A DNA stretch of 64,000 nt from an uncultured Acidobacteriota bacterium. Its GTDB lineage: Bacteria; Acidobacteriota; Terriglobia; Terriglobales; Acidobacteriaceae. The notes under the pieces are model-generated. The model was not told the origin of the DNA. It saw only the letters and a list, made by a program, of their open reading frames with translations, and did no database searches. Location of the stretch: NCBI GenBank assembly GCA_903832295.1, contig CAILAZ010000268.1, positions 1 through 64,000 on the forward strand, read 5' to 3'. Positions 9,523 through 53,528 of this stretch are shown piece by piece (position 1 is the first letter of the stretch; each line of letters starts with the position of its first letter). The translations under genes and the position numbers were made by a program.

Positions 9523-9526
9523 GACG

Positions 9527-10036
9527 ATGATCTATCCGATTGTGAAATATGGCGATCCTGTGCTGGAGACTCCGGCTGCGCCGGTCACTGAGTTTGGCGA
9601 CAAGCTGAAGAAGCTGGTCGAAGACATGTTTGAGTCCATGTACGAAGCGCAGGGCGTGGGCCTGGCCGCTCCCCAGATCGGCATCTCGCTGAAGCTCTCC
9701 GTGATCGACACGTCGTTCAAGGAAGATCCCGAAGCGAAGCTGGTGCTGGCCAATCCCGAGATCCTCAGCGTCGAAGGCAAGCAGAGCGGAGGCGAAGGCT
9801 GCCTCTCAATTCCAGACTTCCGCGAAACCTTGCCTCGCGGCAAAAAGGTCACCATCCGCGCGCAGGACATCAACGGAAACTGGTATGAGAAGACTGGCGA
9901 AGACCTGCTGGCACGCGCCTTTCAACATGAGATCGATCATCTCAACGGCACGCTCTACATCCACCATCTCTCATCACTCAAGCGCGACATGATGCGGCGC
10001 AAGATCAAGCGGCTCATCCGGCAGGGTGAGTGGTAG
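9527..10036 (+). CDS. def: Peptide deformylase
   Basis: 169 residues. Removes the N-formyl group from nascent proteins. All three metal-site motifs are intact: GVGLAAPQIG (motif I), EGCLSIP (motif II, Cys ligand) and QHEIDHLNG (motif III, HExxH). The start ATG at 9527 is 4 nt after the aroC stop; a longer upstream extension would only overlap aroC. A terminator separates it from fmt, the enzyme acting at the opposite end of the same formylation cycle. Confidence 0.95.
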   Translation: MIYPIVKYGDPVLETPAAPVTEFGDKLKKLVEDMFESMYEAQGVGLAAPQIGISLKLSVIDTSFKEDPEAKLVLANPEILSVEGKQSGGEGCLSIPDFRETLPRGKKVTIRAQDINGNWYEKTGEDLLARAFQHEIDHLNGTLYIHHLSSLKRDMMRRKIKRLIRQGEW

Positions 10037-10056
10037 CTCGATGAAGCTCACAAGGG

Positions 10057-10080
10057 GCCGCGCCTGCCGCGCGGCTTTTT
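10057..10080 (+). terminator. Intrinsic terminator after def
   Basis: 7-bp GC stem GCCGCGC / GCGCGGC (10057-10063 with 10069-10075), 5-nt loop, followed by TTTTT. Confidence 0.85.
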
Positions 10081-10130
10081 GCTGCCCGCAGCAGAAGGCG
10101 TGAACGGCGGCAAGCCGCTACAATCAAAGT

Positions 10131-18499: not shown

Positions 18500-18575
18500 G
18501 GTGGGTATAGTTCAATGGTGGAACGCCGGTCTGTGGCACCGGATGGTGTGGGTTCGAGTCCCACTACCCACCCCA
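18500..18575 (+). tRNA. tRNA-His (GTG)
   Basis: Cloverleaf with acceptor GTGGGTA / TACCCAC, the His-specific extra G at -1 (18500) pairing with C73, anticodon stem CCGGT / ACCGG around CTGTGGC (anticodon GTG), T loop GGTTCGAGTCC and an encoded CCA. Confidence 0.95.
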
Positions 18576-18925
18576 ACATATCTTTAAAGTTTGCCAGTCG
18601 TTTCGCTTACGCGAGGGTCCATTCAGGGTCCAAACCCTACTGAATGGATCCGGCAAGCACTCCCGAAACAACCAATCTGTTCGCCGCTCGCAAATTCTCG
18701 GCAACGCTTTGCGCGTCGCCGAGTTCCCTGCATCAGTTTTCACGTACACAAGTGCTTGCCACAATTGTCCGCCGGTATCGACGGCGTGGAGCGTCCAGCC
18801 CTCGCTTTCCCCGCCGCCGGCCTGATTGATGCCAACGGATTGCATTCGCAGGCGTTGGGCATTGTGGTAGCCTTCTGTTGAATAAAGCACCCGGACCCGA
18901 TCTGCAAAAAATCACGGAGGATGAT
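18576..18925. other. Region after tRNA-His, no gene supported
   Basis: 350 nt with short overlapping frames on both strands but no recognisable protein. A strong hairpin TCCATTCAG / CTGAATGGA (18618-18626 with 18640-18648), with partly pairing GGT/ACC inner bases, lies 43 nt past the tRNA. It may terminate the tRNA transcript, though it has no T tract. No integrase remnant could be recognised. Confidence 0.4.
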
Positions 18926-20302
18926 GTGGTGTTTTCGTTGGCACGCAAGGCGTCTTACCTGAGCTTCGCAGTCTCTCTTTTCGTGCTGGCTGGCATCGCG
19001 CAGGATGGCCCTCCGCCTGAGATTCGCGACCATATCAGCGCCTTTGTGAAAGCCGTCAACAGCCCCAGCCCAGCCGACTGGGAGAGCATGGCACAGCAAC
19101 ATTACACGCCCAGCCAGTTGCAGCGCCGCACGTCCGATGAACGTAAGCAATCGTTTGAGCGGCTGCGGCAACTGTTCGGCAACATCTCCATCACGGGCAT
19201 CGAGCGGGAGAGTCCTGATGCGCCGCTTGAACTCCAGGTGAAAGGGGCTACCGGTTCGAGCGGCGTAATTGAAATGGAACTTGAGCCGGCAGCGCCGTAT
19301 CGCATCAATGCCCTACGCGTGCGCGTGGGCGGCCCAGCAGAGCAGGGAAAGCCGGGCATTGTAGCGCCGCCGGTGAACGGCAGCATGTCTGCTGAACAGA
19401 TGGCCCAAGCGCTGGATCCCTACTTTGGGGCTCTTGCGTCCGAAGATAAATTCTCCGGAAATGTCCTGATTGCAAAAGACGGCAAGCCGATCTACGAAAG
19501 ATCCTTTGGCTTTGCCGACCGGGGCGCGAAAATCCCAAACACGTCTGCTACCCGGTTCAACCTCGGCTCGATCAACAAGACGTTTACGCAGACCGCGATT
19601 CAGCAACTGATCTCGGCAGGCAAACTGTCGCTCACAGACACGGTTGGAAAGTTGCTGCCGCAATATCCACAGGAGACGACGCGCACTGCAACCGTGGATC
19701 AACTGCTGCACCACACCGCCGGGGTCGCCAACTTCTTCGGCGATGAATTTTCCGCCGCCGCGAAGGACCGCTTCCGGAGCAATGCCGATTATTACAAGTT
19801 CGTCTCCAACATGAAGCCACTGTTCGCTCCCGGCACAGGCAACCAGTACTGCAACGGCTGCTACATTGTGCTCGGCCAGATTGTTGAGCAACTCTCCGGG
19901 GTGCCGTATGAGAAATACGTGGAAGCGCACGTGTTCATTCCCGCTGGCATGCGCGCAACCGGAGCTCTGCAAGCTGACGCGCTTGAGCCAAACGTCGCTA
20001 TGGGCTACACGCGCCTGGACGGGCCTTTCCGCAGCAACGTGTACACGCGCGGTGCGGCCGGCAGCGCCGCAGGCGGTGGGTATTCCAGCGCAACGGACCT
20101 GCTCGCCTACGCACAGGCCTTGAAAAGCGGGCGCATGCCCGGGGTTCCCGCGGCCAGTGATTTTGGCTTCGCCGGCGGAGCTCCCGGCATCAGCTCATCG
20201 CTCGAACAGAATGGGCCGTGGACGGTGATCGTGCTCACCAACCTGGATCCGCAGCTTGGCGAGGAGCTGGGCAGGGTCGTTGTGCAGGCGTTGGCCCGGT
20301 AG
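18926..20302 (+). CDS. Exported serine hydrolase, beta-lactamase/class C PBP family
   Basis: 458 residues from GTG 18926 (GGAGG 6 nt upstream; GTG 18929 is also possible). After a signal peptide and an N-terminal domain of about 150 residues resembling a DUF3887-like region, the serine hydrolase domain carries SxxK (GSINKTF, about residue 215), YxN-like (QYCNG) and a C-terminal GGAPG element. Such enzymes are D-Ala peptidases or esterases acting outside the cytoplasm. The physiological substrate is unknown. It precedes, but is probably transcribed separately from, the vWA-kinase operon, which has its own promoter. Confidence 0.8.
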   Translation: MVFSLARKASYLSFAVSLFVLAGIAQDGPPPEIRDHISAFVKAVNSPSPADWESMAQQHYTPSQLQRRTSDERKQSFERLRQLFGNISITGIERESPDAPLELQVKGATGSSGVIEMELEPAAPYRINALRVRVGGPAEQGKPGIVAPPVNGSMSAEQMAQALDPYFGALASEDKFSGNVLIAKDGKPIYERSFGFADRGAKIPNTSATRFNLGSINKTFTQTAIQQLISAGKLSLTDTVGKLLPQYPQETTRTATVDQLLHHTAGVANFFGDEFSAAAKDRFRSNADYYKFVSNMKPLFAPGTGNQYCNGCYIVLGQIVEQLSGVPYEKYVEAHVFIPAGMRATGALQADALEPNVAMGYTRLDGPFRSNVYTRGAAGSAAGGGYSSATDLLAYAQALKSGRMPGVPAASDFGFAGGAPGISSSLEQNGPWTVIVLTNLDPQLGEELGRVVVQALAR

Positions 20303-20448
20303 TCCAATCTTAATCGGCATAGGGCGAGAGTCCCTCTCGTTCCCTGCCAAAGCACCGTACAGCGGGTAGGTACGAGGGTTCGAACCGCTCTCTCGAGAGG
20401 GTTTCGCGGAAACCTTGGAAGAGAGGGGCGAACGGGACAATTTCGCTC

Positions 20449-20477
20449 TTGACGGGCAATACTGCCCAGAATACGAT
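20449..20477 (+). promoter_or_regulatory. Sigma70-type promoter of the vWA-PP2C-kinase operon
   Basis: TTGACG (20449-20454), exactly 17 nt, then TACGAT (20472-20477). Predicted start near 20484, 20 nt before the first ATG. The spacer contains GGCA..TGCC arms that could hold an operator. Confidence 0.65.
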
Positions 20478-20503
20478 GAGCCTTCCTATCAGCGGAGGTT
20501 CAG

Positions 20504-21076
20504 ATGCACAGCCTGACCTGGGGCCTTCTCGCGGCCTCTCTGCTTGTCCCCGCTACTCCGCACTCTGCCAACAGCGACACCCCTGCCCTGGATACAAAGG
20601 CTATTGTTCATGCGTGCGGAACGAAGGGCGAACCTGCGTTCAAAGGGAAGCTGTTGGGAAATGTGAGTGAGGAGAGCTTCCGGGAGGCGAAAGACGCGCT
20701 GCTGGGACAGTACGACAGCAAGAAGGTGGACGCGCAGATGATGCAATCGGTATGCACGGTGGCGATGTGGCAGGCAGCCAACCAGGTGCAGGCAAAGCGG
20801 CCGGCGCGGGTAGAAGCTGCGCGGGCGGAAACCGACGTGCTTTCGACTCCGGCGCCCCCGAGAGCGGCTCCACCGGCGCGGGAAGCGGATTCTCCGAATC
20901 TTCAGAAGCAGGTCTCCAAACTCCAGGAGGATGCGAAGAGGGAGAAGGAATCCACGGGGATGACACTGGAAGCGGTGGAAGCGGTTTCACTGCTGGCACT
21001 GGTGTTTGCACTGGTGGCGCTGTATTACTCGTGGTCTGCGACGAGAAAAGCACTGCGGTCAGCGGGTTTGCTGTAA
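20504..21076 (+). CDS. Membrane protein, first gene of the vWA-PP2C-kinase operon
   Basis: 190 residues; GGAGG 5 nt before ATG. An N-terminal signal sequence (about 1-22) is followed by a short domain with two Cys (HACGTKG and QSVCTVAMW), a Pro/Ala-rich linker, a coiled coil (about 128-148) and a C-terminal membrane helix (about 157-178, LLALVFALVALYYSW). The topology suggests an exported domain held at the inner membrane. No family is recognised. It is the first gene after the promoter at 20449 and lies 77 nt before the vWA gene. Confidence 0.65.
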   Translation: MHSLTWGLLAASLLVPATPHSANSDTPALDTKAIVHACGTKGEPAFKGKLLGNVSEESFREAKDALLGQYDSKKVDAQMMQSVCTVAMWQAANQVQAKRPARVEAARAETDVLSTPAPPRAAPPAREADSPNLQKQVSKLQEDAKREKESTGMTLEAVEAVSLLALVFALVALYYSWSATRKALRSAGLL

Positions 21077-21153
21077 GAAGATTTGCACTGCAAGAAGGCC
21101 GAAGTTCCACGTTCCATATCCAAGAGGACAATCTACTTCCCTGACGGAGGGTC

Positions 21154-21858
21154 ATGATGGGGTTCCAGAAGAACAAAGCGAATTCGCTTCATCCACAAGT
21201 TGTCACTCTGATCATTGACGATAGCGGCAGCATGCAGGGCAGCAAGGCGAAGCAGGTGACAGAGGCGGTCCAGGACAACCTGGTGATCACGCTGCAAAGC
21301 CAGAACCTGCAAACGCACGGGTTCCGGTTTCTGCTGAACATTGCGAAGTTCGGGGACAACGTGACTCCGCTGGCGCTGGCGAGCAAGCCGGATGAGGTGA
21401 ACCTGAACGACCTGGTGTTCGAAGGCGAGTCTGGCCAGACAAACATGGCAGAGGCGTTGCGGTGGGCGAAAGAAGCAGTGGAGACGGCACTACAGAAATG
21501 CCGCGCACTGCCGGATTACGCGGAGAACGAATCACCGAACCCGCTGTGCATTTTCTTCAGCGACGGCGAGAACACGGGGAGCGATGTGACCCAGGCGGCG
21601 AACGCTCTGAAGGCCGTGCGCTTTGACGGCGGGCAGGTGGACGTTGTGGCCTGCGGGATTGGATTGCAGCAGAAGGATTTTCCGACGATGGAGGCCATTG
21701 CCTCCGATGTGTCGCTGGCGACCAACATCAGCCCGGACCGGCTGGGAGACTTTATTGCGGAAGTAACGGTGACGGTGTTCAAGGGCGAACAGGCGCAGCA
21801 ACTGATGGAGAGAACCGAAGGCATGGAGCAGGTGCGTGGCCAATCCGGCACGCGTTGA
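21154..21858 (+). CDS. von Willebrand factor A domain protein (TerY-like)
   Basis: 234 residues, essentially one vWA domain. The metal-ion-dependent adhesion site is complete: DxSxS in IDDSGSMQG (about residue 22), the Thr in GQTNMAEA (about 97) and the Asp in FFSDGENTG (about 131). No signal peptide is seen, so it is cytoplasmic. In TerY-P systems such a protein acts as a scaffold or target for a linked kinase and phosphatase. GGAGG is just upstream; ATG 21154 and 21157 are both possible. The 3' end overlaps the PP2C frame by 23 nt. Confidence 0.88.
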   Translation: MMGFQKNKANSLHPQVVTLIIDDSGSMQGSKAKQVTEAVQDNLVITLQSQNLQTHGFRFLLNIAKFGDNVTPLALASKPDEVNLNDLVFEGESGQTNMAEALRWAKEAVETALQKCRALPDYAENESPNPLCIFFSDGENTGSDVTQAANALKAVRFDGGQVDVVACGIGLQQKDFPTMEAIASDVSLATNISPDRLGDFIAEVTVTVFKGEQAQQLMERTEGMEQVRGQSGTR

Positions 21859-23389
21859 GCGGCCGATGACACTCGCACAGGCAGGCGGAAGGCGGCAGTT
21901 CCGGATCGACGAGGAAAGCGACTCGGCGAATGCGCTGATGCTGTTTTCACTGCTGCTGTCCGCAGCGCGGGATGCTGAATTCCATGGCAAGCATTTTGAG
22001 GTGAGCGCGGGGGCGCTGCTGGTGTGGCAGAACTGTTCGCCGCCCACGCTGGAAGATCTAAGGGCGGGAGCACAGTCAGGCCTTGCGCCGGGTTCGTGTC
22101 CACCGGTTCTGAGGAACGCGTGGTACGGAATGCGCGATGGCGCATTCATGGCAACGCTGAAGTATGCGCTGCAACATGCGGCGACGTTCGAGATATCGGA
22201 TGCGCGGCAGATTTGCCGGTTGCTTGCCGGGGTGGCCCAGACCCTGCTGACGGTTGACTCCGAACTTCGCTCGCACAATCTGCTGCTGGCACAGCGATAC
22301 CAGGACGCGGCAATGCAGCGGATGCGGCACTCGACGGTCGCGCGGCCGGAGCCGGCACGCACGGAGGCAATGCTGGCGAGGGCTCCGGAAGCGCGAGTTG
22401 CGGAGCAGCAGCCGACGGCGAGCAGCAGGGCTGCGATGAGCTTGGGGCAACCGTATGCGGAGCGCGTGGATGAACGGGGCGGATATGAGGAAGCGGATGG
22501 GGCGCAAGGCTGGTTTGCGACCAGCCGCGGTCCGCGACACGCGGCAAAGCCGGAAAACCAGGACGCGGCCTACGTGGTTTCCGATGAGAAGGGACGGATG
22601 ATTTTTGCCACCGCGGACGGGGTCAGCACGTCCACGGGGGCGCGATTTGGCGCGGCGGCAACGGTGTTCCTGTTTTGCCAGCGGCTTTGCGAAATGCTGA
22701 AGGAAGAGCCGGAGCCGGGAAGTGAAACCCTGCTGCGCGCGCTGAGCGCGACACAGTTGGACATGGACGGCGTGCTGAATACGGTGCTGGAAAACTGGGA
22801 GCAGCAGGACTTCCGCGAGGTGTACGCGGACATGCCGCGCGAGAGCGCGAAGCGGCTGCTGAGCAACACGCGATCTCCGAAAAAGAGCTGGCCTCCGGGA
22901 CTTTCCTCGACACTGATCGGCGGATTTTTGGCGCGGCGGAGGAATGGGCTTGAAGGCTTTGCGCTGCGGCTGGGAGACGGAGTGATCGAACGGGTGAGCG
23001 GAAATGAGGAGGTGACCCCGATATTCGGGATGGATTCCGAGGTCACGGCAATTTCCGCATTTTTCGGGCCGGGGCCGCTGTGCGCAGGACACCTGGGGAG
23101 CGCCGAGATCAAAGACATACGAGTGGAGAGTGGCGAGCTGCTGCTGATTTCCAGCGATGGGCTGACGCGGGGACACAGCCTGGGTGTGTACCGGGAGCTA
23201 CAGGAACTGCTGGGCGCGGGATTTGCCCGAAAGCTGCCGCGCAATGGCAGCACGGCGCACGAGTTGCTGGAGCTTGCCGGGCGACGCTCGGATGAGCTGC
23301 ATGAGTCGCAAGGCGATTCGCAACTGTTTGCGGACAACCTTGCACTGACGCTGATTTGCCCGACGATGCCGGGAGAACTGCATGGGTAA
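21836..23389 (+). CDS. PP2C-family protein phosphatase with N-terminal helical domain
   Basis: 517 residues from GTG 21836 (ATG 21866, after the vWA stop, is an alternative). Residues 1-165 form a helical domain of unknown family. Residues about 225-510 are a PP2C phosphatase with metal-binding Asp motifs KPENQDAAYV (about 242), FATADGVS (about 260), LLISSDGLTRG (about 440) and ADNLALTL (about 500). It should dephosphorylate Ser/Thr, most simply the targets of the kinase encoded next. Its stop overlaps the kinase start by 8 nt, indicating translational coupling. Confidence 0.87.
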   Translation: MANPARVERPMTLAQAGGRRQFRIDEESDSANALMLFSLLLSAARDAEFHGKHFEVSAGALLVWQNCSPPTLEDLRAGAQSGLAPGSCPPVLRNAWYGMRDGAFMATLKYALQHAATFEISDARQICRLLAGVAQTLLTVDSELRSHNLLLAQRYQDAAMQRMRHSTVARPEPARTEAMLARAPEARVAEQQPTASSRAAMSLGQPYAERVDERGGYEEADGAQGWFATSRGPRHAAKPENQDAAYVVSDEKGRMIFATADGVSTSTGARFGAAATVFLFCQRLCEMLKEEPEPGSETLLRALSATQLDMDGVLNTVLENWEQQDFREVYADMPRESAKRLLSNTRSPKKSWPPGLSSTLIGGFLARRRNGLEGFALRLGDGVIERVSGNEEVTPIFGMDSEVTAISAFFGPGPLCAGHLGSAEIKDIRVESGELLLISSDGLTRGHSLGVYRELQELLGAGFARKLPRNGSTAHELLELAGRRSDELHESQGDSQLFADNLALTLICPTMPGELHG

Positions 23390-24641
23390 GCCATCGGGTC
23401 CGGTCATGCGCGAGGCACTGGATCGCCAGGGCAAGACGATCCTGTGGAAGAAGAGGCGATTGTTTATTCCCGGGGGGTCGCAAAAAGCCGAATTCGAGAT
23501 GGGCGGCGAAGGGCTGGTGCAGCTTGCGATTGATGAAGACACGAAGCTGAAGTACCGGATCAAGTGCTTCTGGGAGCCACACGAGAAGCGGCTCCGGCGC
23601 TCGCAATTGCTGGCGGCGCAGGGGCTGGCCGACCTTTCGAAATCGGTGGCGGATGCGCTGGGCGGCGCTCCATTCGGGGTGCTGGGTTCGCTGGGTCCGA
23701 ACACGCCCTTCGCGGTGATTATGAAGAACGTGGGGGGCATGAGCTGGCAGCACCTCCGGGAGAATGCGAGCGTCGATGCGGTTTATCCGCCGAGGGAGTG
23801 GCCGACGATCGATGTGCGCGCGACCTGGGCGTACGGACTGGCGACGGCGGTGCGGACGATGGAAAGCAGAGGATTTGTGCACGCCGACTTCTCGCCGGGG
23901 AATGTGATGCTGACGGCTTCCGGAGAGACTACGGGCGATATGGCGCTGGTGGATTTCGACTCATTCATCCACCCTTCCGACCCGGAGCCGGACCGCTCCT
24001 GCCGCGGCACACCGGGCTTTGCAGCTCCGGAGATCCACCAGGGGGGGACGGTTGGCAAAGGCACGGACCGGCTGGGAATGGCGATCCTGATCCAGGAGTT
24101 TCTGTGCGTGGGAGACCCGTCGATTTCAAAGGACGAGGCTTTTTCGTGGAGCTACGACCAGGAGACGGAGTTGATCTCAAAGCGCGGCGAGGCGCATCCG
24201 CTGATGACGCGCAAGTATCCGGCGCTGGCGGAGCTGGTGAGGCGCGCGATTGCAGCTCCGACGCGGGAGGGGCGGCCAACACCGAACGACTGGCGGCCGC
24301 TGCTGAAACAGATTGTGATGGACCAGCGGCTGGGTCCGCGACTGAGGGACGGGATCCTCGTTCCTTCCATTGGACCGGACAAGACATGCGTGTACCTGGA
24401 CGCGATCACGGAAATCGACCTGCAGACGACGCCTTTCGCAATCCGGGTGAAACTGCAACGCGATACGGAAGGCAGGGTGAGCTGCGTGGTGCATGCAGGC
24501 GCGGACGTGCGAGTGCAGCATGCGAACAAACCGGGCTGGCTGCGGCTGCAACCGGGAACGCCTACCTATGTGTCCCCGGGGATGGTGCTGTTTGACCGCG
24601 AAGGCAAAATTGCGGCGAAGGTAGTTGCGACGGAGTTGTAA
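23382..24641 (+). CDS. Ser/Thr protein kinase of the vWA-PP2C triad
   Basis: 419 residues; GGGAG precedes ATG. The kinase fold has the ATP-binding Lys in YRIKCFWEP (about 66), catalytic loop HADFSPGN (about 167, Asp and Asn present, Lys replaced by Ser), a metal-binding VDFDS in place of DFG (about 190), GTPGFAAPE (about 210) and the alpha-F Asp in GTDRLGMAI. It should be active, although it belongs to the divergent lineage seen next to PP2C genes. Residues about 345-419 form a beta-rich C-terminal domain of unknown type. No membrane segment is present. A 39-nt gap leads to the GYF/Sel1 gene. Confidence 0.87.
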   Translation: MGKPSGPVMREALDRQGKTILWKKRRLFIPGGSQKAEFEMGGEGLVQLAIDEDTKLKYRIKCFWEPHEKRLRRSQLLAAQGLADLSKSVADALGGAPFGVLGSLGPNTPFAVIMKNVGGMSWQHLRENASVDAVYPPREWPTIDVRATWAYGLATAVRTMESRGFVHADFSPGNVMLTASGETTGDMALVDFDSFIHPSDPEPDRSCRGTPGFAAPEIHQGGTVGKGTDRLGMAILIQEFLCVGDPSISKDEAFSWSYDQETELISKRGEAHPLMTRKYPALAELVRRAIAAPTREGRPTPNDWRPLLKQIVMDQRLGPRLRDGILVPSIGPDKTCVYLDAITEIDLQTTPFAIRVKLQRDTEGRVSCVVHAGADVRVQHANKPGWLRLQPGTPTYVSPGMVLFDREGKIAAKVVATEL

Positions 24642-24680
24642 ATCAGCACTCTGCGGCTTAGCCGCAAGTGGAGCTCAAGC

Positions 24681-26219
24681 ATGAACTTCGAGGTCAGGGT
24701 CAACGGGCAAACGCTGGGGTCGCTCGAGCGAAGCGAAATTGAACGGCGCGCGCCGGCATGGCAGCGGGCGAATGCGGCGGTGGAGATTGTGGTCCCGCAG
24801 ACAAAGACTTCCATGCCGCTGGCGGACTTTCTGGCGTGGACACCGAAGGCCGCGGCGAAACCACAAGCGCCCCCGCCCGGAATGCTGGATCAATTTGATA
24901 TTCCAAGCGGCCATTACCAGGTGGATGTGAACGGGCAGCGGCTGGGCGTTTTGAGCGCCCCGGAGGTGATACGGCGCTCGCGGCACTGGGGCAAGTCCCC
25001 GGTGCAGATTTATAGCCCGCTGATTGGAGTGCTGGGATTGCAGGACTGGCTGGATCGCATGGCGGCGCGCTTTGACCCGATGTTGTGGCCGAGGTCAGCG
25101 GATACAGAGGAATACACGCTGCGGCATGGCGGACAGACGGCGATGCAGGACGTGACACGGGCAGAGATCGAGTGGAGAGCGGCGCAGAATCTTGTGGGCG
25201 CAGGCTGGGAGGTTGGAAGCGCTGGGGGAGGCGCGATCAGCGTGGAGGACTTCCTCGAGGGGCGACCGATTCCGCGCGGGCCGGTGAACGCTCCGCCGCC
25301 GCGAGCGGGACAAGCGGCACAGAGCCAGGCACCGCGGGGAGCATCGCCTTCGGCGGGGGCGGCGGCGGGAGTGAAGGCAGCGGCATTCGCGCCGCTGGTG
25401 TTCGGACCTGGACCTTACTTTGTGAGAATCGCAAACGCAACGCTGGGACCGTTGCAGCGCGACGAGATTGAACGCCGCTCGAAGAGCTGGCCGGCCAACG
25501 CAGCCGAGGTTGGGGAAAACGCGGCGGGACCCTTCGTTCCGCTGGCGGAGTTCCTTCGGATGCCGCTGGCACAACCTGCTGCGCGTCCGCCGAAGCCGCG
25601 GACACGAGGATTGCTCCTGGGCGCGGGAGCCATCTGCGTGCTGTGCCTGGCACTGATTGCTGTAAAGGTGTTGCCGCGAATGACGGATCACAGCGCAGAT
25701 GTGCAGAAGGCGGAAGACGCGATGAAGGCGGGAGATTTCGATGCAGCCTCACAACTGCTGCAGAAGAACAACTCTCCGGAGGCGAAATTTGAACTTGCCT
25801 GCCTGTACAAGAACGGCCTGGGAGTGCAACAGGACACGCAGAAGGCAAGCGAACTGCTGAGGGCATCTGCCGACGCAGGCTTGCCACTGGCGCAGACCAT
25901 GCTCGGGCTGTGGTATGCCAACGGCGATGGGGTGGAGGCCAACACGACCACTGCTGCGAGCTGGTATCGAAAGGCGGCCACGCAGGGGGACTCAAACGCG
26001 TCCGTGCTGCTGGCACTGGCCTACGCGGGAGGCGACGGGGTGGAGCAGGATGCGGGGAAAGCGTTTCTGTGGTTTACGGTGGCGGAGAAACAGGGGAACA
26101 GCTATGCCACCTCCCAAAAGGACCTGATTGGCGACCCGCTGGAAGCAGCACAGAAGGAAGCCGCCGAGCGTGGAGCGGAGGCGGAGTTTGCAAAGCAATC
26201 CGGAGGCAAACATGAATAG
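24681..26219 (+). CDS. Membrane protein with four GYF-like repeats and C-terminal Sel1 repeats
   Basis: 512 residues. Four degenerate repeats of about 50 residues share a pattern Y/F-x-V-x-x-N-G-Q-x-L-G-x-L-x-x-x-E-I-x-R-R ending x-L-x-D-F/W-L. They start near residues 2, 78, 144 and 245 and resemble the cytoplasmic GYF_2 module that binds Pro-rich peptides. One membrane helix (about 309-331, LLLGAGAICVLCLALIAVKV) follows. Sel1/TPR-like repeats (about 360-475, KNGLGVQQDTQKASELL, ANGDGVEANTTTAASWY, AGGDGVEQDAGKAFLWF) lie on the other side. The protein could carry the kinase signal across the membrane. It overlaps the next gene by 8 nt. Confidence 0.75.
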   Translation: MNFEVRVNGQTLGSLERSEIERRAPAWQRANAAVEIVVPQTKTSMPLADFLAWTPKAAAKPQAPPPGMLDQFDIPSGHYQVDVNGQRLGVLSAPEVIRRSRHWGKSPVQIYSPLIGVLGLQDWLDRMAARFDPMLWPRSADTEEYTLRHGGQTAMQDVTRAEIEWRAAQNLVGAGWEVGSAGGGAISVEDFLEGRPIPRGPVNAPPPRAGQAAQSQAPRGASPSAGAAAGVKAAAFAPLVFGPGPYFVRIANATLGPLQRDEIERRSKSWPANAAEVGENAAGPFVPLAEFLRMPLAQPAARPPKPRTRGLLLGAGAICVLCLALIAVKVLPRMTDHSADVQKAEDAMKAGDFDAASQLLQKNNSPEAKFELACLYKNGLGVQQDTQKASELLRASADAGLPLAQTMLGLWYANGDGVEANTTTAASWYRKAATQGDSNASVLLALAYAGGDGVEQDAGKAFLWFTVAEKQGNSYATSQKDLIGDPLEAAQKEAAERGAEAEFAKQSGGKHE

Positions 26220-27330
26220 CCACTTTCCGATGAGAAGCAGGCGCGGGGTTGCATGGATGCTGATGTTTGCGGGGCTCCTGATGCCGGTGGCAGCGCATCC
26301 GACGGCGGGCAGGTTCACGGCCCGGGCACATAGCGTACGGGCAAAGTCCCAGATCATCTCGAACGACCACTACGCGGAAGCGGGGAAGCTGAAGCAGGAG
26401 ATCGCGGCCCTGGAGGAGAAAGCCTCCACGCTGGAAGCACTGGACAGCCAGGTGGATGCAATGCAGAGCGAGGTGGACAGCCGGGAGAGGGAATACGAGG
26501 CGGCGAAGGCAGACGCGGACGCCAAGGATGCCGCGCTTGGGAGAGAGGCAGAGGACGCGAAGTCCACGGCGCAATCCATTGCACAGCAGGTAACGCGAAT
26601 CTGCTCCCAGCTGGGCGGGAGCATGCACGGGTCAGAGCAGTGCGGGTTCATGTGTCCGCAGGACCAGATGAGTCCGTGCGAGCAGAAGGCGCGCTCCTTT
26701 GAAAGCCAGACGGGAGCGCTGATCCCCAAGCTTGAATCACTGGCGAACCTGCTGAGGTCACTCCAGGAGAAGGCGGAAGGGGCGCGGACGCGGAGCGGGG
26801 AAAAGCGGAGGCAATGGGAGGCGGCGAAGGCAGCGCGCGAAAAGAAGCAGAACGAGCTGACGAGCCGGGGCCAGGATTTTGAGAATGAGGCGGCGCGGAT
26901 TGATTTTGAAATCGACTCGGCGCGCTCGTCGTGGAAGCCAACGCTTGGGCCCGCGTATCAACAGCTCAACAACGTGCACTCGAAGTCGGGCAGCGTGGAT
27001 ATCCGGGGCTCCTGCTATGACACGGGCTGCGCGCCAGTGACCCCGGCTCCGGCAGCCAAGGTTCCGGAGCCAGCGACGAAGTCCGCGGCGTATGTAAAGG
27101 CCACGGAGACGCGCACGGAGAATCTGAAGAAGCTGACGGAGAGCGCGGATACGGCGCGTGAAGAACTGAGGAAGGCCGAGGCAAACCATGCGGACGCGCA
27201 GGAACTCCAGCAGCGGCTGAGAGACTACGCGACCAAGGACCAGGCGCGGATATGGGCGGCGTATGAGCTGAAGGCTACATTTCCGGCGAATCTGCTGAAC
27301 GGCGTTGCGCCCACACCTGCCAGCCACTAA
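26212..27330 (+). CDS. Exported coiled-coil protein of the vWA-kinase operon
   Basis: 372 residues; GGAGG 5 nt before ATG 26212. A signal peptide (about 1-30) leads to a long helical coiled coil (about 45-125), a Cys cluster (RICSQLGG, QCGFMCPQDQMSPCEQKA, about 128-162), a second coiled coil (about 165-250), a Cys pair (SCYDTGCAP) and a third helical segment. Paired cysteines suggest disulphides in the periplasm. No known family. Gene order places it as a structural partner of the Sel1 and TPR proteins. Confidence 0.65.
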   Translation: MNSHFPMRSRRGVAWMLMFAGLLMPVAAHPTAGRFTARAHSVRAKSQIISNDHYAEAGKLKQEIAALEEKASTLEALDSQVDAMQSEVDSREREYEAAKADADAKDAALGREAEDAKSTAQSIAQQVTRICSQLGGSMHGSEQCGFMCPQDQMSPCEQKARSFESQTGALIPKLESLANLLRSLQEKAEGARTRSGEKRRQWEAAKAAREKKQNELTSRGQDFENEAARIDFEIDSARSSWKPTLGPAYQQLNNVHSKSGSVDIRGSCYDTGCAPVTPAPAAKVPEPATKSAAYVKATETRTENLKKLTESADTAREELRKAEANHADAQELQQRLRDYATKDQARIWAAYELKATFPANLLNGVAPTPASH

Positions 27331-27341
27331 CGAGGACGACG

Positions 27342-28478
27342 ATGAAGAGCAGAATACTGTTGTTCGCGGCTTTGATGACGATGCTGGGATCGCCGCTGCT
27401 GGCTGAAATGCGCATGCTGCGCCCGCTTCCGAACACGCTTGAGAGCAAGGACCGGATGGAACTGGAGTCGATGCATGCGAAGGCAGTTGCGCAGGGACGC
27501 ACGCTGTGCAACGCCTACTCGAGATTCAGAACGCAATGCGATGGCAAGGCCGACAGCACTGCCTGCCGGGCGTCGTTTTCCGACATCAACGAGAAGCTGG
27601 GGCACTACAACGAGGAAGCAGAGAAATATAACGGCGCGGTGGTGGCAAAGCTGAGGCAGCGCGTGGAAGGGCTGGCCAAGGTTGTGCAGAGAGATCAACA
27701 GGCGATTCGAAGCCTCGGCATCCATCATGATTCCGAGGAGTTCGAGTCATGGTCAAAATGGCTGGAGGACGCGGACGCAGAGAGAATGGAGCAGGTGGAC
27801 GCCGCGTTCCGGGATGCTGCCATGAGCGCGGCCAGTTCCCGCATCAAAGCGGCGCTGCGGGCAGGGGCCCTGAAGACGGCGGCCCTGGATCCGAAGACTG
27901 CAGAACGGCTGATTGGGCGGCTGAAGGGGGCGGGAGTGGGAGACCCGTACTTCTTCGAGGCGATCCGCAAGGTGGCGTCAACGGGCGGGAAGCAAGAGAC
28001 CGCGGAAGCGGGGATGAAAGTTCTGGACAGGCTGGGTAAGGCGAAGTCGATCTGGGATCTCCACGACATGGGGCCAAACAAGGAGAGCGCCACGTGGAAG
28101 GCGGGTTCCGAGCTGCTGGGCTTGTTCATCCCCGATCCGGAACTTGAACTGGTTGGCAAGCTCACGCTGGATGAAGTGCGCGCAACTTTTTACACGGTGA
28201 ACGAAGCAGCGATTGATTTTCCGGTTTTTTCGGCGCGGGTGCGCCAACTGGGGACGTTAACGGAGATGCACCTGCTGGCGCTGCGCACGCTGAGCGCACG
28301 GCTGCAAGCGGACGTTCAAAAGAAGGCCCCGGCGGCAAAGGAGCTTGCGGGAATCGACAAGCGGAAACCGGAAGAGGTTTGCGCGATGGGGCCGGATCCG
28401 TCGGAACCGGTGGCTGCGGAGTTCGACGGTGTGTTGCTGGCGCAGGGGTGCAGGCTTGCGCACGCGCCGGGCCAGTGA
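27342..28478 (+). CDS. Exported helical protein of the vWA-kinase operon
   Basis: 378 residues. A signal peptide (MKSRILLFAALMTMLGSPLLA) is followed by a mostly alpha-helical protein with three early Cys (RTLCNAY, TQCDG, TACRAS) and two late ones (EVCAMG, QGCRLAH). It has no transmembrane helix after the signal and no recognised domain. It begins 11 nt after the previous gene and ends 30 nt before the TPR gene. Confidence 0.6.
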   Translation: MKSRILLFAALMTMLGSPLLAEMRMLRPLPNTLESKDRMELESMHAKAVAQGRTLCNAYSRFRTQCDGKADSTACRASFSDINEKLGHYNEEAEKYNGAVVAKLRQRVEGLAKVVQRDQQAIRSLGIHHDSEEFESWSKWLEDADAERMEQVDAAFRDAAMSAASSRIKAALRAGALKTAALDPKTAERLIGRLKGAGVGDPYFFEAIRKVASTGGKQETAEAGMKVLDRLGKAKSIWDLHDMGPNKESATWKAGSELLGLFIPDPELELVGKLTLDEVRATFYTVNEAAIDFPVFSARVRQLGTLTEMHLLALRTLSARLQADVQKKAPAAKELAGIDKRKPEEVCAMGPDPSEPVAAEFDGVLLAQGCRLAHAPGQ

Positions 28479-28508
28479 GGGTAGAGAGAATTCTGACGAG
28501 GCGCCAGG

Positions 28509-29798
28509 ATGCCGATCAGTCCGGATGAATTCGATGAAGAAGGCAAGGTCAATGCACTGACTCCGATTTACGTGGCTGAGAGTGCGGAGCCTGCTGCCGA
28601 AAAACCAGAGCGCAAGGGGCGGAAGCTCCCGCTGGTATTTGCTTTGATTGCGATTGCGGTGCTGTTTGTGGGCTACCTTGCGTGGCCGAAGTCCTCGGTT
28701 CAAGTGCAGCTGGAAATTGGGGTGAAAGCGGCGAAGCAGGGGGACTGGGGCACGGCGGTGTCTTCGCTGAGTACGATCAGCACCTACCCCGTGTCCAGGG
28801 TTTACCGGGCGGAGGGGCTGGGGCAGCTGAAAAGGCCCTCAGAGGCGATTGACCTGATTTTCTCAGACCCGGAGGCGCAAAACCGGTTTGTAGATCTCTA
28901 CCAAAACTCCTACTACGTTTACTATCCTGAGCGCCTTGCCGGGGCTGCGATCAAGAACGGCGATCTCGCTGCCGCGGCTGGGGAGTGCAAGAACCAGCCG
29001 GACTCAAATTGGTTTGACGACGATACGGACGCGCTGGTCAATTGCGGGGTGGCGCTGGCGTATGCGCAGAATGCCACAGGCGAGGACGTGGAGAAAGCGA
29101 AATCCTACCTCCAGCACGTGATTGAATACTCCGACGCGGAGGTTGCCGACCACAGCGTGAAGAGCGCGGCGCAGATCGACCTGGGCACGCTGCTGATGAA
29201 GGTAAACGGGGACTCCGATAAGGCGCTGGCCCTGTATGCGCGCTACGTGGAAGCGAATCCTGGCGAAGCGGTGGCAGAAATCAATTATGGCTTCCTGCTG
29301 GCAAATCACCAGAGATATGCGGAAGCGGCCGTGCAGTTCCGAAAGGCGGCAACGGGCGAGAGCAAGAACGATGCAGGGGAGTTCCTGCGAATTGTTTTGC
29401 GGAAGCAGGCCGAGACGGCTGCACGCGCCGGGCAGTGGGCAAAGGCGTCGAAGCTGCTGAACCAGGCGATCCGGACGACGGGGCCGCCGGACTTGACATG
29501 GGTGGAGTGGGAACGGCTGCTGGTGTTCTGCGCGTTGAACTCCGGGCAATGGCAGCTTGCGGAAGCCAAGGCGGCGGTGCTGGCGCAGTACGCTCCGGAA
29601 GAGACACCGCACTGGGAAGGGCGGGTTCAGCGCTGGGTGAAGTTCGACAGCCGCGCGGAATACAACTACTGGCTGGGACAGGCACGCATGCAGCAGGGCA
29701 ACCGCGATGGGGCGGTGAACGCCTGGGAGAAAGCGCAGGCGCGACATCCGGATGACCTGTGGATTGCAGAAGAAATAAGACTGGCAAAATTGCGGTAA
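28509..29798 (+). CDS. Membrane-anchored TPR protein, last gene of the operon
   Basis: 429 residues. A short cytoplasmic N-terminus and one membrane helix (about 39-60, LPLVFALIAIAVLFVGYLAW) are followed by a periplasmic solenoid of TPR-like helices from about residue 65 to the end (GVKAAKQGDWGTAVSSLS, KALALYARYVEANPGEAVAE, ANHQRYAEAAVQFRKAATGE, WEKAQARHPDDLWIAEEIRL). It could serve as assembly platform for the two exported proteins encoded just upstream. A strong bidirectional terminator follows 17 nt after the stop. Confidence 0.72.
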   Translation: MPISPDEFDEEGKVNALTPIYVAESAEPAAEKPERKGRKLPLVFALIAIAVLFVGYLAWPKSSVQVQLEIGVKAAKQGDWGTAVSSLSTISTYPVSRVYRAEGLGQLKRPSEAIDLIFSDPEAQNRFVDLYQNSYYVYYPERLAGAAIKNGDLAAAAGECKNQPDSNWFDDDTDALVNCGVALAYAQNATGEDVEKAKSYLQHVIEYSDAEVADHSVKSAAQIDLGTLLMKVNGDSDKALALYARYVEANPGEAVAEINYGFLLANHQRYAEAAVQFRKAATGESKNDAGEFLRIVLRKQAETAARAGQWAKASKLLNQAIRTTGPPDLTWVEWERLLVFCALNSGQWQLAEAKAAVLAQYAPEETPHWEGRVQRWVKFDSRAEYNYWLGQARMQQGNRDGAVNAWEKAQARHPDDLWIAEEIRLAKLR

Positions 29799-29815
29799 GC
29801 GCGAAGAGAAACTGC

Positions 29816-29846
29816 AAAGAGCCTGCGGCTGCCGCAGGCTCTTTGG
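29816..29846. terminator. Bidirectional terminator closing the vWA-kinase operon
   Basis: Perfect 13-bp stem AAAGAGCCTGCGG / CCGCAGGCTCTTT with a 3-nt loop, A-rich on one flank and T-rich on the other, between convergent genes. Confidence 0.9.
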
Positions 29847-29864
29847 TGTTTGCGGAAGGACCGC

Positions 29865-32030
29865 CTATTTTGCGTCGGTACCCTCAAGGCCGCGGTGCTT
29901 CAACATGGCCTTGCTGTTGGGAGGAGCGCCGCGCCAGGATTCGTACATTCTTGCGAGATCCTGGGTGTTGCCCTGGGAGAGGACCATTTTGCGCAGGCGA
30001 TCGCCGTTGGCGCGGGTGAGTCCGCCATTTTCCTCAAACCACTGGTAGGCATCGTCGGAGAGCATCTGGGTCCAGAGATAAGCGTAGTAACCGGCGCTGT
30101 ATCCGCTCTGCCAGATGTGGTTGAAGTAGCTGGTGCGGTAGCGGGAGGGAACGTAGCTGAGATTGAGGTGCGTCTTGGCGAGGGCCTGCTTCTCGAAGTC
30201 GTCAGGGTTCTGGAGGGGCGCGTCCGGGGTGAGGAAGTGCCACTGCATGTCGAGCTCGGCGGCGGCGAGGAGCTCGGTCATGTCATATCCCTTGTTGAAG
30301 GTGGCAGCCTTGCGGATGCGTGCGACAAGTTCGGGGGGCATGAGGGCTCCGGTTTTGTAGTGGCGGGCGTAGTGGGCAAAGACGGCGGGCTGGAGCGCCC
30401 AGTGCTCGTTGAACTGCGAGGGGAACTCGACGAAGTCACGGGCGGTGGCGGTGCCAGCGAGGGTGGGGTAATTCGCGTCAGAGAAGATGCCGTGGAGGGC
30501 GTGTCCGAACTCGTGGAACATGGTGACGACATCACTGAAGCTGATGAGGGCGGGCTCGCCTTCGGCAGGCTTGGGGAGGTTGGCTACGTTGTAGGCAACG
30601 GGTGTGGTGCCGAGAAGGCGGGACTGGCCGACAAACTCGGACATCCATGCGCCGCCGTTCTTGTTGTCACGCTTGAAGTAGTCGCAGTAGAAGATGGCAA
30701 GGTGGCTGCCATCGGCGTTGAAGACTTCAAAGACGCGAACGTCGGGATGATACACGGGAATGTCATGCCGCTCCTTGAAGGTGATGCCGTAGAGCTGAGT
30801 GGCGGCGTAGAAGACTCCGTTCTGGAGGACGTTGTTGAGTTCGAAGTAGGGCTTGACCTGGGCATCGTCAAGATCGTAACGGGCCTTGCGAACTTTTTCG
30901 GAGTAGAAATCCCAGTCCCACGGCTGCACCTGGAATCCGCCTTTTTCGGCATCGATGACCTGCTGAATGTCATGGGCTTCCTGGGCGGCTTTGGCGGTGG
31001 CGGCGGGGACGATGGCGTCCATGAACTTGAGAGCAGCTTCGGGGGTCTTGGCCATCTGGTCTTCGAGCTTCCAGGCGGCAAAGCTGGGGTAGCCGAGGAG
31101 CTTGGCCTTCTGGGCGCGAAGCTGGGCGATGCGGGCGATGGTGTCACGGGTGTCATTGGCGTCGCCACGCTCGGTGCGATTCCATGAATGCTCGAAGATG
31201 GCCTGGCGGGTTACACGGTCCGTGAGCAGGGCAAGGTCGGGCTGCTGGGTGGTGTTCTGGAGCGGGATGAGGAAGCCTTCGACCTGGCGGCTCTTGGCGG
31301 CCTGTGCGGCAGCGGCGATGCGGGCGTCGGAGAGTCCGGCGAGTGCGAGCTTGTTGGGGGCGACGTAGGCTCCGGCCTTGGTGGCGGCGAGGAGCTTGTT
31401 GCCGAAAGCGTTGGAGAGCGAGGAAAGTTCCTCATTCAATTTGCGGAGCTGGGCCTTGTCGGGTTCAGAGAGCCCGGCTCCGGCGTGCACAAACTGGTCA
31501 TAGACGCGCTCGACGAGGCGGAGCGATTCGGGGTCGAGCTTGAGGGCGGCGCGCTGATTGTAGATGGCCGAGACGCGCGCAAAGAGTTTGGCGTTGAGGT
31601 GAATGGAGTCGCTGTGAGCGGCGAGCTTGGGAGCTTCGACGGTTTTTACGTGCTGGAGGGTGTCATTGGTATTGGCACCGGTGACGCCGCTGAAGGCGGC
31701 GAGGACACGATCTAGAAGCTGTCCGCTCTTCTCCATGGCAACGATGGTGTTTTCAAAAGTGGGGGGCTCGGGATTGTCAGCGATGGCGGTGATTTCCGCG
31801 CCGTGCTGGACGATTCCGGCCTCGATGGCGGGCTGGTAGTCGGCGTCCTTGATCTTGTCAAAGGGCGGTGCTTTGAAGGGCAGGGTGCTGGGTGCGTAGA
31901 ACGGATTGGAGGGGCCGAATTCTGCGGCCGCGGCGAGGGCGGGATCGGGGGAACAGATCACAATAGCTCCAGAAACGATCAGGGTCATGAAGATGAGCCT
32001 GACGGCGTTGAGTCGAGTGAATTTCATCAT
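29865..32030 (-). CDS. dcp: M3-family zinc peptidase (peptidyl-dipeptidase Dcp-like)
   Basis: 721 residues. A probable signal sequence (about 10-34) precedes a full M3 peptidase. The zinc site is FHEFGHALHGIF (HExxH), with the third ligand Glu in VEFPSQFNEHW about 30 residues later. The C-terminal substrate region is present (YFNHIWQSGYSAGYYAYLWT). Dcp-type enzymes release C-terminal dipeptides from oligopeptides, in the periplasm if exported. ATG 32030 and 32027 are both possible. Confidence 0.9.
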   Translation of the reverse strand: MMKFTRLNAVRLIFMTLIVSGAIVICSPDPALAAAAEFGPSNPFYAPSTLPFKAPPFDKIKDADYQPAIEAGIVQHGAEITAIADNPEPPTFENTIVAMEKSGQLLDRVLAAFSGVTGANTNDTLQHVKTVEAPKLAAHSDSIHLNAKLFARVSAIYNQRAALKLDPESLRLVERVYDQFVHAGAGLSEPDKAQLRKLNEELSSLSNAFGNKLLAATKAGAYVAPNKLALAGLSDARIAAAAQAAKSRQVEGFLIPLQNTTQQPDLALLTDRVTRQAIFEHSWNRTERGDANDTRDTIARIAQLRAQKAKLLGYPSFAAWKLEDQMAKTPEAALKFMDAIVPAATAKAAQEAHDIQQVIDAEKGGFQVQPWDWDFYSEKVRKARYDLDDAQVKPYFELNNVLQNGVFYAATQLYGITFKERHDIPVYHPDVRVFEVFNADGSHLAIFYCDYFKRDNKNGGAWMSEFVGQSRLLGTTPVAYNVANLPKPAEGEPALISFSDVVTMFHEFGHALHGIFSDANYPTLAGTATARDFVEFPSQFNEHWALQPAVFAHYARHYKTGALMPPELVARIRKAATFNKGYDMTELLAAAELDMQWHFLTPDAPLQNPDDFEKQALAKTHLNLSYVPSRYRTSYFNHIWQSGYSAGYYAYLWTQMLSDDAYQWFEENGGLTRANGDRLRKMVLSQGNTQDLARMYESWRGAPPNSKAMLKHRGLEGTDAK

Positions 32031-32072
32031 GGGCTTCGAGGTTCCTTGTCTGCCCCATTGTAACGCCGGGGG

Positions 32073-33041
32073 CTACCCGCGCATGACGGGAGTGGCGTGG
32101 AGGAGGTAGGCAAGGATGGCGAGAAGGGCGGCGAAGTAGAGCTGCACGGCGATGGAGCCATCCTGTGGAATGGGCTTGCGGTAGAGCTGCCAGGCAAATC
32201 CGGCGGCGAGGAAAAGAAGAGTGGCTTCGCCGGTCCACCAGAAGAGGGCGAGGCTGAAGACGAGGAGACTGATGCGGCCCATGCGGTCAATGGGGAGGAC
32301 AGCTCCGGCACCATCGAGAATCCAGACGGGGATGAGGTTGAGGAGGTTGAGCCAGGCTCCGGTGTGGGCGAGGGCTCCCCAGATGGGGTTGCCGGTGCGC
32401 CAGAAGAGGAAGGCGGCGACGAGAGCGGCGAGGAGTCCGGCGGCGGGGCCGGCAAGGGAGACGAAGGAACGAACCTCGGTGGAGACTCCGAGAGCCTGCC
32501 ACTTGACGTAGGCTCCGAGGCCGGGGAGGAAGACGGGCATTTCGGCGGGAAGGCCGCGGCGCTTGACCTCGGCGAAGTGTCCCATCTCGTGAATGAGGAT
32601 CATGAGGGCGAAGCCGATGCCGAACCAGGCTCCGAAGGCGGCCCAGTAGATTCCGAGGAAGGCGACGAAGCTGAAGAGGAATTTGAACTTGAAGATGGCG
32701 AAGAGGAAGGTCTTGGCCTTGGCAAGGACGAGAGCGAGAGGCGCGAGGGGGCCGAGTCGCCTGGCCCAGGGATGCTGCGATTTGGCGGCGGCGGCGGGGG
32801 GGCTGGCGAGGTCGCGCAGGTGCTGCTCGATCCACTCGGCCTGCTTGGAGGCGGGCGGGACGAGTTGCAGGGCGGCGAGCCAGGCCTGGCGGGCGTTGAC
32901 GAGATCGTGCTGATGCTCAAAGGTGACGGCCTGGGTGCGGAGGGCGTCGAGTTCGTCGGCGTGGACGAGGGCGCGGCACTGCGGGCAGACGATGGCATCC
33001 GGCGACAGCGGGGCGAGACAGCGGGTGCAGTTCAGAGGCAA
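32073..33041 (-). CDS. M50 site-2-protease-like membrane metalloprotease with zinc ribbon
   Basis: 322 residues from a TTG at 33041 (AGGA 6 nt upstream). The N-terminal zinc ribbon is CTRCLAPLSPDAIVCPQCRA, then a cytoplasmic helical linker and at least five membrane helices. The active site is intact: HEMGH in MILIHEMGHFAEVKRRG and NLIPVWILDGAGA (NxxPxxxLDG). Such proteases cut membrane-embedded substrates. The zinc ribbon may recruit one. It lies 8 nt after the zinc-ribbon membrane gene upstream and is co-transcribed with it. Confidence 0.85.
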   Translation of the reverse strand: MPLNCTRCLAPLSPDAIVCPQCRALVHADELDALRTQAVTFEHQHDLVNARQAWLAALQLVPPASKQAEWIEQHLRDLASPPAAAAKSQHPWARRLGPLAPLALVLAKAKTFLFAIFKFKFLFSFVAFLGIYWAAFGAWFGIGFALMILIHEMGHFAEVKRRGLPAEMPVFLPGLGAYVKWQALGVSTEVRSFVSLAGPAAGLLAALVAAFLFWRTGNPIWGALAHTGAWLNLLNLIPVWILDGAGAVLPIDRMGRISLLVFSLALFWWTGEATLLFLAAGFAWQLYRKPIPQDGSIAVQLYFAALLAILAYLLHATPVMRG

Positions 33042-35901: not shown

Positions 35902-35978
35902 GGGAGCGTAGCTCAGTTGGATAGAGCATCTGCCTTCTAAGCAGAGGGTCGCAGGTTCGAGTCCTGCCGCTCCTACCA
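35902..35978 (+). tRNA. tRNA-Arg (TCT), prophage attachment gene
   Basis: Acceptor GGGAGCG / CGCTCCT, anticodon stem TCTGC / GCAGA around CTTCTAA (anticodon TCT), T loop GGTTCGAGTCC and an encoded CCA. Phage genes begin within 65 nt of its 3' end, the usual situation at a tRNA attB/attL. Confidence 0.95.
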
Positions 35979-48562: not shown

Positions 48563-49024
48563 ATGGCCAGAACGCCCAAACCGACAGTTTTGCTCGAGCA
48601 AAATGGCGGGTTTGATCATGATCCTCAGCGCCGCGCCGCCAGGGAAAGTGAACCAATTCCCTCCGGACCGCTCGGAGATCCTCCGGAGAGGTTTACGAAG
48701 GTCCAGAAGGAAGTTTGGGCTGAGCTGGCTATCCAGGTACCCGAAGGCGTCCTCACGATCGCCGATCGGATGGCCGCGGACCTCTATTGCTCGCTTGTCG
48801 CGCGACATTACGGCGGTGACGAGGACGTCGATGGCTCCATCAAGCCTCCGGAGAAGCTAAAAGCTTCCGAGTACGGCCTCATCCTTCAACTCCTGAGCCG
48901 TTTCGGATGTACTCCCGCCGATCGCAGCCGCATAAAAGCCTCTCCCAGCAAGAAAGAGAAATCATCCAGTGACACTTTCGAACAACTTGCCAGAGAGGGA
49001 CGAGGAAAACGAAAGCCACAGTAG
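48563..49024 (+). CDS. Terminase small subunit (P27 family)
   Basis: 153 residues from ATG 48563 (GAGGA upstream). Pattern PPERFTKVQKEVWAELAIQV, then LTIADRMAADLYCSLVARHY, with a basic C-terminus, matches P27-type small terminases that recognise phage DNA. Overlaps the large subunit gene by 56 nt. Confidence 0.8.
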   Translation: MARTPKPTVLLEQNGGFDHDPQRRAARESEPIPSGPLGDPPERFTKVQKEVWAELAIQVPEGVLTIADRMAADLYCSLVARHYGGDEDVDGSIKPPEKLKASEYGLILQLLSRFGCTPADRSRIKASPSKKEKSSSDTFEQLAREGRGKRKPQ

Positions 49025-50741: not shown

Positions 50742-50995
50742 AAATTCTCTTTGCATTTCTGCGCGGGTTTTTCCTGCTCCCAGTCGCATCGTTCATCCGG
50801 GGATGGCTCAAGCGCAATGGTTCGCGAGTGGCTGCAATCGCGTGGGACCTGGCGTTTCTGGTTGGATGCATGGTCTTCGTTTATGGCGTCCGGCTCGCCT
50901 GGCGTCCTGGTGGATTCATGGTTGCTGGCCTCTTGCTGATTGCGGTGGCTGTTCTATTCCAGCGCCAACCAGGTAAGCCCGAGGGATCTAAATGA
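50738..50995 (+). CDS. Small membrane protein between terminase and portal
   Basis: 85 residues with two membrane helices (about 30-50 and 56-75). Overlaps both the terminase and portal genes by 4 nt, so it is made together with the packaging proteins. Role unknown. Confidence 0.7.
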   Translation: MKILFAFLRGFFLLPVASFIRGWLKRNGSRVAAIAWDLAFLVGCMVFVYGVRLAWRPGGFMVAGLLLIAVAVLFQRQPGKPEGSK

Positions 50996-52560: not shown

Positions 52561-52562
52561 CC

Positions 52563-53411: not shown

Positions 53412-53528
53412 ATAACCCAAAAAGTTCGGAGGCCGATGCCTCCAGTAAGCCAGTGCTAGCAAAAGCCTCCCATGAGGCCTGCCGCGGCGCTTTTGCAATA
53501 CCACGCTCTGATTCCAAGGAGAAACATC

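Follow-up and report, generated by a model that had tools for sequence, protein, structure and literature searches.

Operon layout and genomic setting

The DNA analyzed here (the window, 64,000 nucleotides) comes from a soil-type Acidobacteriota genome (G000), and its ORF list contains eight ORFs that run in one direction and span 20504-29798 on the plus strand. A first-pass annotation had described eight packed co-directional genes, which are indeed present at this place, with junctions that are tight or overlapping. The genes, numbered g1 to g8, and the elements that flank them are the following:

20449..20477, plus strand: putative sigma-70-like promoter, TTGACG-17-TACGAT (consensus scan, 9/12; weak)
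20504..21076, plus strand: g1, exported/bitopic protein with a single C-terminal TM segment (155-173) and a cytoplasmic tail ending KALRSAGLL (hydropathy; C-terminal 9-mer comparison; alignment)
21154..21858, plus strand: g2, vWA protein with a complete MIDAS (PF00092, 6.4e-11; PADLOC TerY, 7.5e-6; 44-45% identity to the vWA protein of locus L069)
21836..23389 (alternative start ATG 21866), plus strand: g3, PP2C-family Ser/Thr phosphatase with an extra N-terminal region of ~220 aa (PF13672, PP2C_2, 4.9e-14)
23382..24641, plus strand: g4, Ser/Thr protein kinase with a C-terminal beta-rich domain of ~75 aa (PF00069, Pkinase, 4.4e-10)
24681..26219, plus strand: g5, protein with four cytoplasmic repeats of ~58 aa, a TM segment (310-328) and periplasmic Sel1 repeats (Sel1 PF08238, 3.1e-22; hydropathy)
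26212..27330, plus strand: g6, exported coiled-coil protein with a conserved Cys cluster (28% identity over 371 aa to the L070 homologue, E=2e-37; shuffle z=43)
27342..28478, plus strand: g7, exported helical protein with conserved Cys66/Cys75 (43% identity to L070, E=1e-93; distant homologue in G009)
28509..29798, plus strand: g8, bitopic TPR protein (TM 40-58, TPR outside; TPR_6, 5.6e-10; hydropathy)
29815..29845, no strand assigned: terminator-like hairpin between the convergent g8 and M3 peptidase genes (14-bp stem; MFE -34.4 kcal/mol for the stretch, z=-3.94)

The g1/g2, g6/g7 and g7/g8 gaps measure 77, 11 and 30 nt, respectively, and g5 and g6 overlap by 8 nt. Overlaps of 23 and 8 nt had been claimed for the vWA, PP2C and kinase genes; the latter (g3/g4) was recovered, and the former (g2/g3) holds only if GTG 21836 starts g3, as a start at ATG 21866 leaves a gap of 7 nt. 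Since g1 to g7 have homologues elsewhere, they represent genes and not chance ORFs. The single promoter that had been proposed is no better than chance, considering the 9/12 agreement with the consensus and the two promoter-like sites seen in the region versus 1.5 expected in shuffles. As to the one strong terminator, the hairpin itself is strong, but its T-tail was accepted by the scan on the minus strand only, the U-tract on the plus strand is weak and the structure is flanked by convergent genes.

The congeners G001-G003 retain the genes 5' of the operon (UDP-glucose dehydrogenase type, tRNA-His), and the stretch that follows, from tRNA-His to a site-2 protease gene (18501-32073), is variable and has other content in these congeners. 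The window carries a beta-lactamase-like gene, the operon and the M3 peptidase gene there (13.5 kb; gene names in this region were assigned by eye), G001 has two other genes instead (2.5 kb) and next to the tRNA of G003 there is the remnant of an integrase. Because the congeners carry different content at this site, the operon is accessory DNA at a variable position. A repeat of the 3' end of tRNA-His that could serve as an att site was not found. Farther downstream, the ORF layout viewed by eye indicates an apparent prophage or phage-like region (36000-64000), which begins after tRNA-Arg (35902-35978) and includes ORFs that resemble those for a terminase, a portal, a protease and a capsid protein (48969-54800) and, at 60917-63757, a long ORF like that of a tape-measure protein.

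The vWA, PP2C and kinase proteins and their likely membrane partner

A vWA protein with an intact MIDAS, a PP2C phosphatase and a kinase had been read from the DNA in that order, and both the Pfam matches and the catalytic motifs, all of which are kept, bear this out. In the alignment with homologues the MIDAS residues of g2 (D22xS24xS26, T96 and D137) are all retained. The metal motifs of g3 (NQD243, D261G, SSD441G and D500N) are present, with the metal-binding Asp conserved in three homologues, and the same holds for the kinase residues of g4 (K61, HAD169, N174 and D191FD), which are conserved in its aligned homologues. Inactive kinase or phosphatase motifs, which had been named beforehand as evidence against the proposed system, were thus not encountered at the level of sequence.

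The C-terminus of g4 contains no Cys4 ribbon in its sequence and has no zinc-ribbon match in Pfam. A structure model of the protein had a pLDDT of 47 and a best Foldseek E of 1.5e-3, to kinases, and predicts seven strands at residues 344-404 of the C-terminal domain (pLDDT about 50); the domain has no significant sequence relative in the PDB. Identification of its fold from the model was dropped, as the model was too weak. In locus L069 of genome G379 (see below), a protein at 9163-10122 combines an N-terminal zinc ribbon and a coiled coil with the domain that g4 has at its C-terminus (z=18). The zinc ribbon that TerY-P kinases carry sits on a separate chain in L069.

No significant Pfam family was found for g1, g6 and g7. 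The tails of the g1-type proteins in the three genomes with this arrangement read KALRSAGLL (window), KALTDAGLI and EVLRNAGLL, each following a TM segment. When 1915 distinct ORF C-termini are compared, the other two tails score 29 and 28 with that of the window and all else scores 19 or less (mean about -7), and the three tails are mutual best matches. Full-length similarity of g1 to its two counterparts is weaker (z 6.3 and 3.1). Because the tails of all three g1-type proteins match one another, g1 is likely the fourth member of the triad module.

Distribution of the four-gene module and its association with an eCIS

The survey, which used profile searches and covered about 2,000 genome slots, recovered the g1-vWA-PP2C-kinase set (module A) beyond the window in two genomes only, G379 (same family) and G675 (Candidatus Sulfopaludibacter sp. 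SbA3). The order in G379 is g1-like, vWA, PP2C, kinase (locus L069), with identities to the window proteins of 44-45% for the vWA protein, 34-35% for PP2C and 42-46% for the kinase (tblastn / concatenated query). In G675 a vWA gene, truncated at the contig end, is followed by PP2C, kinase, a 143-aa exported protein and transposase-like ORFs (IS66-type by eye). The neighbourhood of module A differs in each of the three genomes and no output is conserved.

Among 60 relatives the g4 kinase gave generic kinase-level matches only, and in 246 further genomes of the phylum the g2 vWA protein had no match at E<=1e-4. A concatenated query against 397 genomes of the order, limited in sensitivity because the long query scored just two candidates per genome, led to G379 (kinase, PP2C) and G005 (g7, 43%), and a kinase profile run against 379 genomes of the class led to G675. 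In the scan of one genome per species (84,980 species), likewise of limited sensitivity with its two short peptide patterns, the G675 record was the sole true relative; the first such scan gave no match with its two patterns, and two candidates from the second (L078 and L079) were rejected as ordinary kinases with no adjoining vWA or PP2C match. No match was obtained in plasmids by tblastn with the vWA and PP2C proteins, nor in viral contigs with single proteins and the kinase alignment.

In G379, module A lies co-directionally within the complete gene cluster of an extracellular contractile injection system (eCIS). On its 5' side and on the same strand lie genes for a sheath (PF04984/PF17482), a gp19 tube (1.3e-46), a CIS_tube protein (below cut-off) and an AAA ATPase, and further on for Pvc16_N, two baseplate wedge proteins and DUF6519; an eCIS_core protein (4.1e-28) is encoded on the 3' side. 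By its place before the eCIS_core gene, in a cluster that has sheath, tube and eCIS core, module A of G379 resembles eCIS accessory genes. The main text of an eCIS survey (PMC8213781) mentions histidine kinase/GerE regulators and counts vWA among the putative toxin domains; in the passages searched it contains no vWA-PP2C-kinase control triad. Since genes for an eCIS sheath, eCIS_core and a gp19 tube are all missing from the window genome, the eCIS link concerns module A and not the window operon.

Considering the G379 cluster, module A might have evolved for the control of contractile injection, and in the window genome have outlasted the loss of an eCIS or been captured without one. We regard such an orphan origin as quite improbable, given that no eCIS sheath, core or tube gene was found in the window genome and no core or tube gene in G675 (81% complete), and that the motifs are intact in all three copies, which argues against a decaying remnant. 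Furthermore, the one eCIS association could reflect a single capture event.

The envelope genes

Two exported Cys-bearing proteins (g6 and g7) and a membrane TPR protein (g8) had been predicted among the accessory genes, and this was confirmed by Pfam and topology. According to hydropathy, g5 and g8 have cytoplasmic N-termini and periplasmic repeats. The description of g5 as GYF-like found no support, as neither the protein nor its single repeats matched GYF/GYF_2 in Pfam even at E<=10; the four repeats of ~58 aa are visible nonetheless.

The Sel1 half of g5, g6 and g7 (module B) occur in the same order in G005, as a separate group with other neighbours. The identity of g5 to its L070 relative (46%) is confined to the TM/Sel1 half; g5 of G005 has a proline-rich stretch in place of the N-terminal repeats, and the added cytoplasmic four-repeat part was not found in 199 relatives. 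Cys 131/144/148/156 of g6 have counterparts in L070. A structure model of g7 was of low confidence (pLDDT 45), and identification on that basis was dropped as too weak. Matches of g7 in G163, G199 and G123 were dismissed as chance, the G163 region having no related genes or tblastn match. For g8 no homologue was found in the other module loci compared, and its N-terminal likeness to a membrane protein of L069 (MPxxPxxFD) is only suggestive, with 5 of 300 shuffles as good.

The five accessory genes and the triad had been thought to form one conserved system, but g5(Sel1)-g6-g7 stand without the triad in G005 (84% complete), where no kinase match was found, and so does the distant g7 relative in G009. 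As module B exists in G005 in the absence of the triad, the accessory genes are independent of it. The expected co-occurrence with the triad, for which a neighbourhood check was run, therefore held for g1 (3/3 genomes) and failed for g5-g7, within the few genomes available. As judged by these comparisons, the eight-gene operon occurs very rarely and comprises two modules that can be separated.

Each module being found without the other, one could argue that two merely adjacent operons are involved, g1-g4 for signalling and g5-g8 for envelope maintenance, which are transcribed together yet functionally independent; at 39 nt, the gap between g4 and g5 is among the larger ones and would suit this. 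We think it distinctly unlikely, as all genes lie on the same strand, the terminator scan of the region found no strong terminator between g4 and g5, and g5 gains cytoplasmic repeats in the sole genome that places it behind the triad.

A putative portable phosphorylation switch

Module A looks like a portable on/off switch and not like a component of a single, fixed machine of eight genes. In the reading that we prefer, and to which we give an even chance, g1-g4 would constitute a membrane-anchored reversible Ser/Thr phosphorylation switch that is portable and joined to differing outputs, here g5-g8. The basis for this is formed by the intact motifs, the four-part module A in three genomes, the separate occurrence of module B and the position of module A within the eCIS cluster of G379.

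The periplasmic part of g1 could sense the state of the envelope, and its short cytoplasmic tail (ending ALRxAGLL) would dock one of the soluble triad proteins and so tie the triad to the membrane. The g2 vWA protein may act as a metal-dependent scaffold, and the presumed activities of the g4 kinase and the g3 phosphatase would add and remove, respectively, a phosphate on the target. The outputs of module A would be the eCIS in G379 and g5-g7 plus g8 in the window genome. The latter would be a natural output, with g5 and g8 as predicted inner-membrane-spanning proteins and g6 and g7 as predicted cysteine-bearing proteins of the periplasm. The likely link to module A would be the extra cytoplasmic repeats of g5, which are absent from the triad-free homologue, and g5 or g8 may be the phosphorylation targets. 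A phospho-regulated membrane and periplasmic complex in the window genome is thus possible. Tentatively, and as something conceivable rather than probable, we propose that a portable four-protein phosphoswitch has been plugged into unrelated envelope or injection machines (an eCIS; a periplasmic Sel1/TPR/Cys-bearing complex), the g1 tail serving as a shared socket. If true, this portable phosphoswitch would provide cis-encoded phospho-control of an eCIS. The nine-residue motif of the g1 tail offers a testable handle, as binding to one of the three soluble proteins is expected of it.

Relation to TerY-P and to the T6SS phosphorylation pathway

TerY-P triads are usually discussed together with ter, restriction or defence genes; neither ter genes nor restriction systems were noticed in the neighbourhoods read. 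Kinship in kind with TerY-P had been put forward in the first-pass annotation, and it is corroborated by the PADLOC TerY match of g2 (7.5e-6) and by remote profile-profile matches to vWA-PP2C-kinase sets of the same phylum (G109, G121), with values of 1.5e-5 for vWA, 2.2e-5 for PP2C and 1.5e-10 for the kinase. In the passages on it in PMC11090510, TerY-P (Anantharaman et al. 2012) consists of a TerY-like vWA protein, a PP2C phosphatase and a kinase whose C-terminus bears a zinc ribbon. The window operon is alike in that a full-MIDAS vWA protein, a PP2C phosphatase and a Ser/Thr kinase are encoded together. It differs in the beta-rich domain of ~75 aa that the kinase has where TerY-P has the zinc ribbon, in the ~220-aa N-terminal extension of PP2C and in the conserved bitopic g1 partner. 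Literature searches for the combination returned no description.

The triad could also represent a stand-alone anti-phage or stress-defence system of the TerY-P type, with the downstream genes as unrelated passengers. Besides the TerY likeness of the vWA protein, the kinase has a weak likeness to mad6 (7e-13, PADLOC) and other defence kinases, the operon lies in a variable stretch adjoining tRNA-His, and the beta domain replacing the zinc ribbon brings to mind the TerY-P-like modules with an OB-fold that PMC11090510, where it cites Gao et al. 2020, presents as stand-alone anti-phage systems. Nevertheless, we consider a defence role unlikely, given that the genes flanking the window and G379 triads revealed neither a nuclease or restriction gene nor any other defence effector, that the membrane partner is conserved, that one triad resides in an eCIS cluster and that the variable stretch has no integrase of its own. 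The PADLOC models for the TerY-P phosphatase and kinase were not matched either, which weighs little as the ZnR-bearing triad of G109 was likewise unmatched.

For the portable switch, a precedent exists in the T6SS, a contractile machine under the control of a kinase, a phosphatase and vWA, where PpkA has a vWA domain (PMC3224232). The threonine phosphorylation pathway of the T6SS (PpkA, PppA, Fha) is alike in logic, combining a kinase, a PP2C-type phosphatase, a vWA domain and a contractile machine across the inner membrane, and module A of G379 is found inside a contractile injection cluster. The vWA protein of the window is a separate cytoplasmic protein, whereas that of the T6SS is the extracellular part of the kinase (PMC3224232). 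Moreover, the T6SS pathway has a kinase with a TM segment and a periplasmic vWA domain, and an FHA target, whereas g4 has no TM segment by hydropathy and none of the eight proteins matches an FHA family in Pfam. The switch of the operon resembles TerY-P and, in logic, the T6SS pathway, a likeness that need not amount to membership in either. The existence of a TerY-P-like version that keeps a membrane partner, and of which one copy is found in an eCIS cluster, suggests that membrane or secretion machines can be driven by the same switch, much as the T6SS is by its phosphorylation pathway.

A survey with PF13672 recovered, for use in comparison only, a ZnR-bearing triad of the TerY-P type (L057) and another PP2C-kinase pair (L060, 4319-7284, in G109). 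The latter lies beside HSP90-like and CHAT/TPR-like proteins and possibly represents a further TerY-P-related arrangement.
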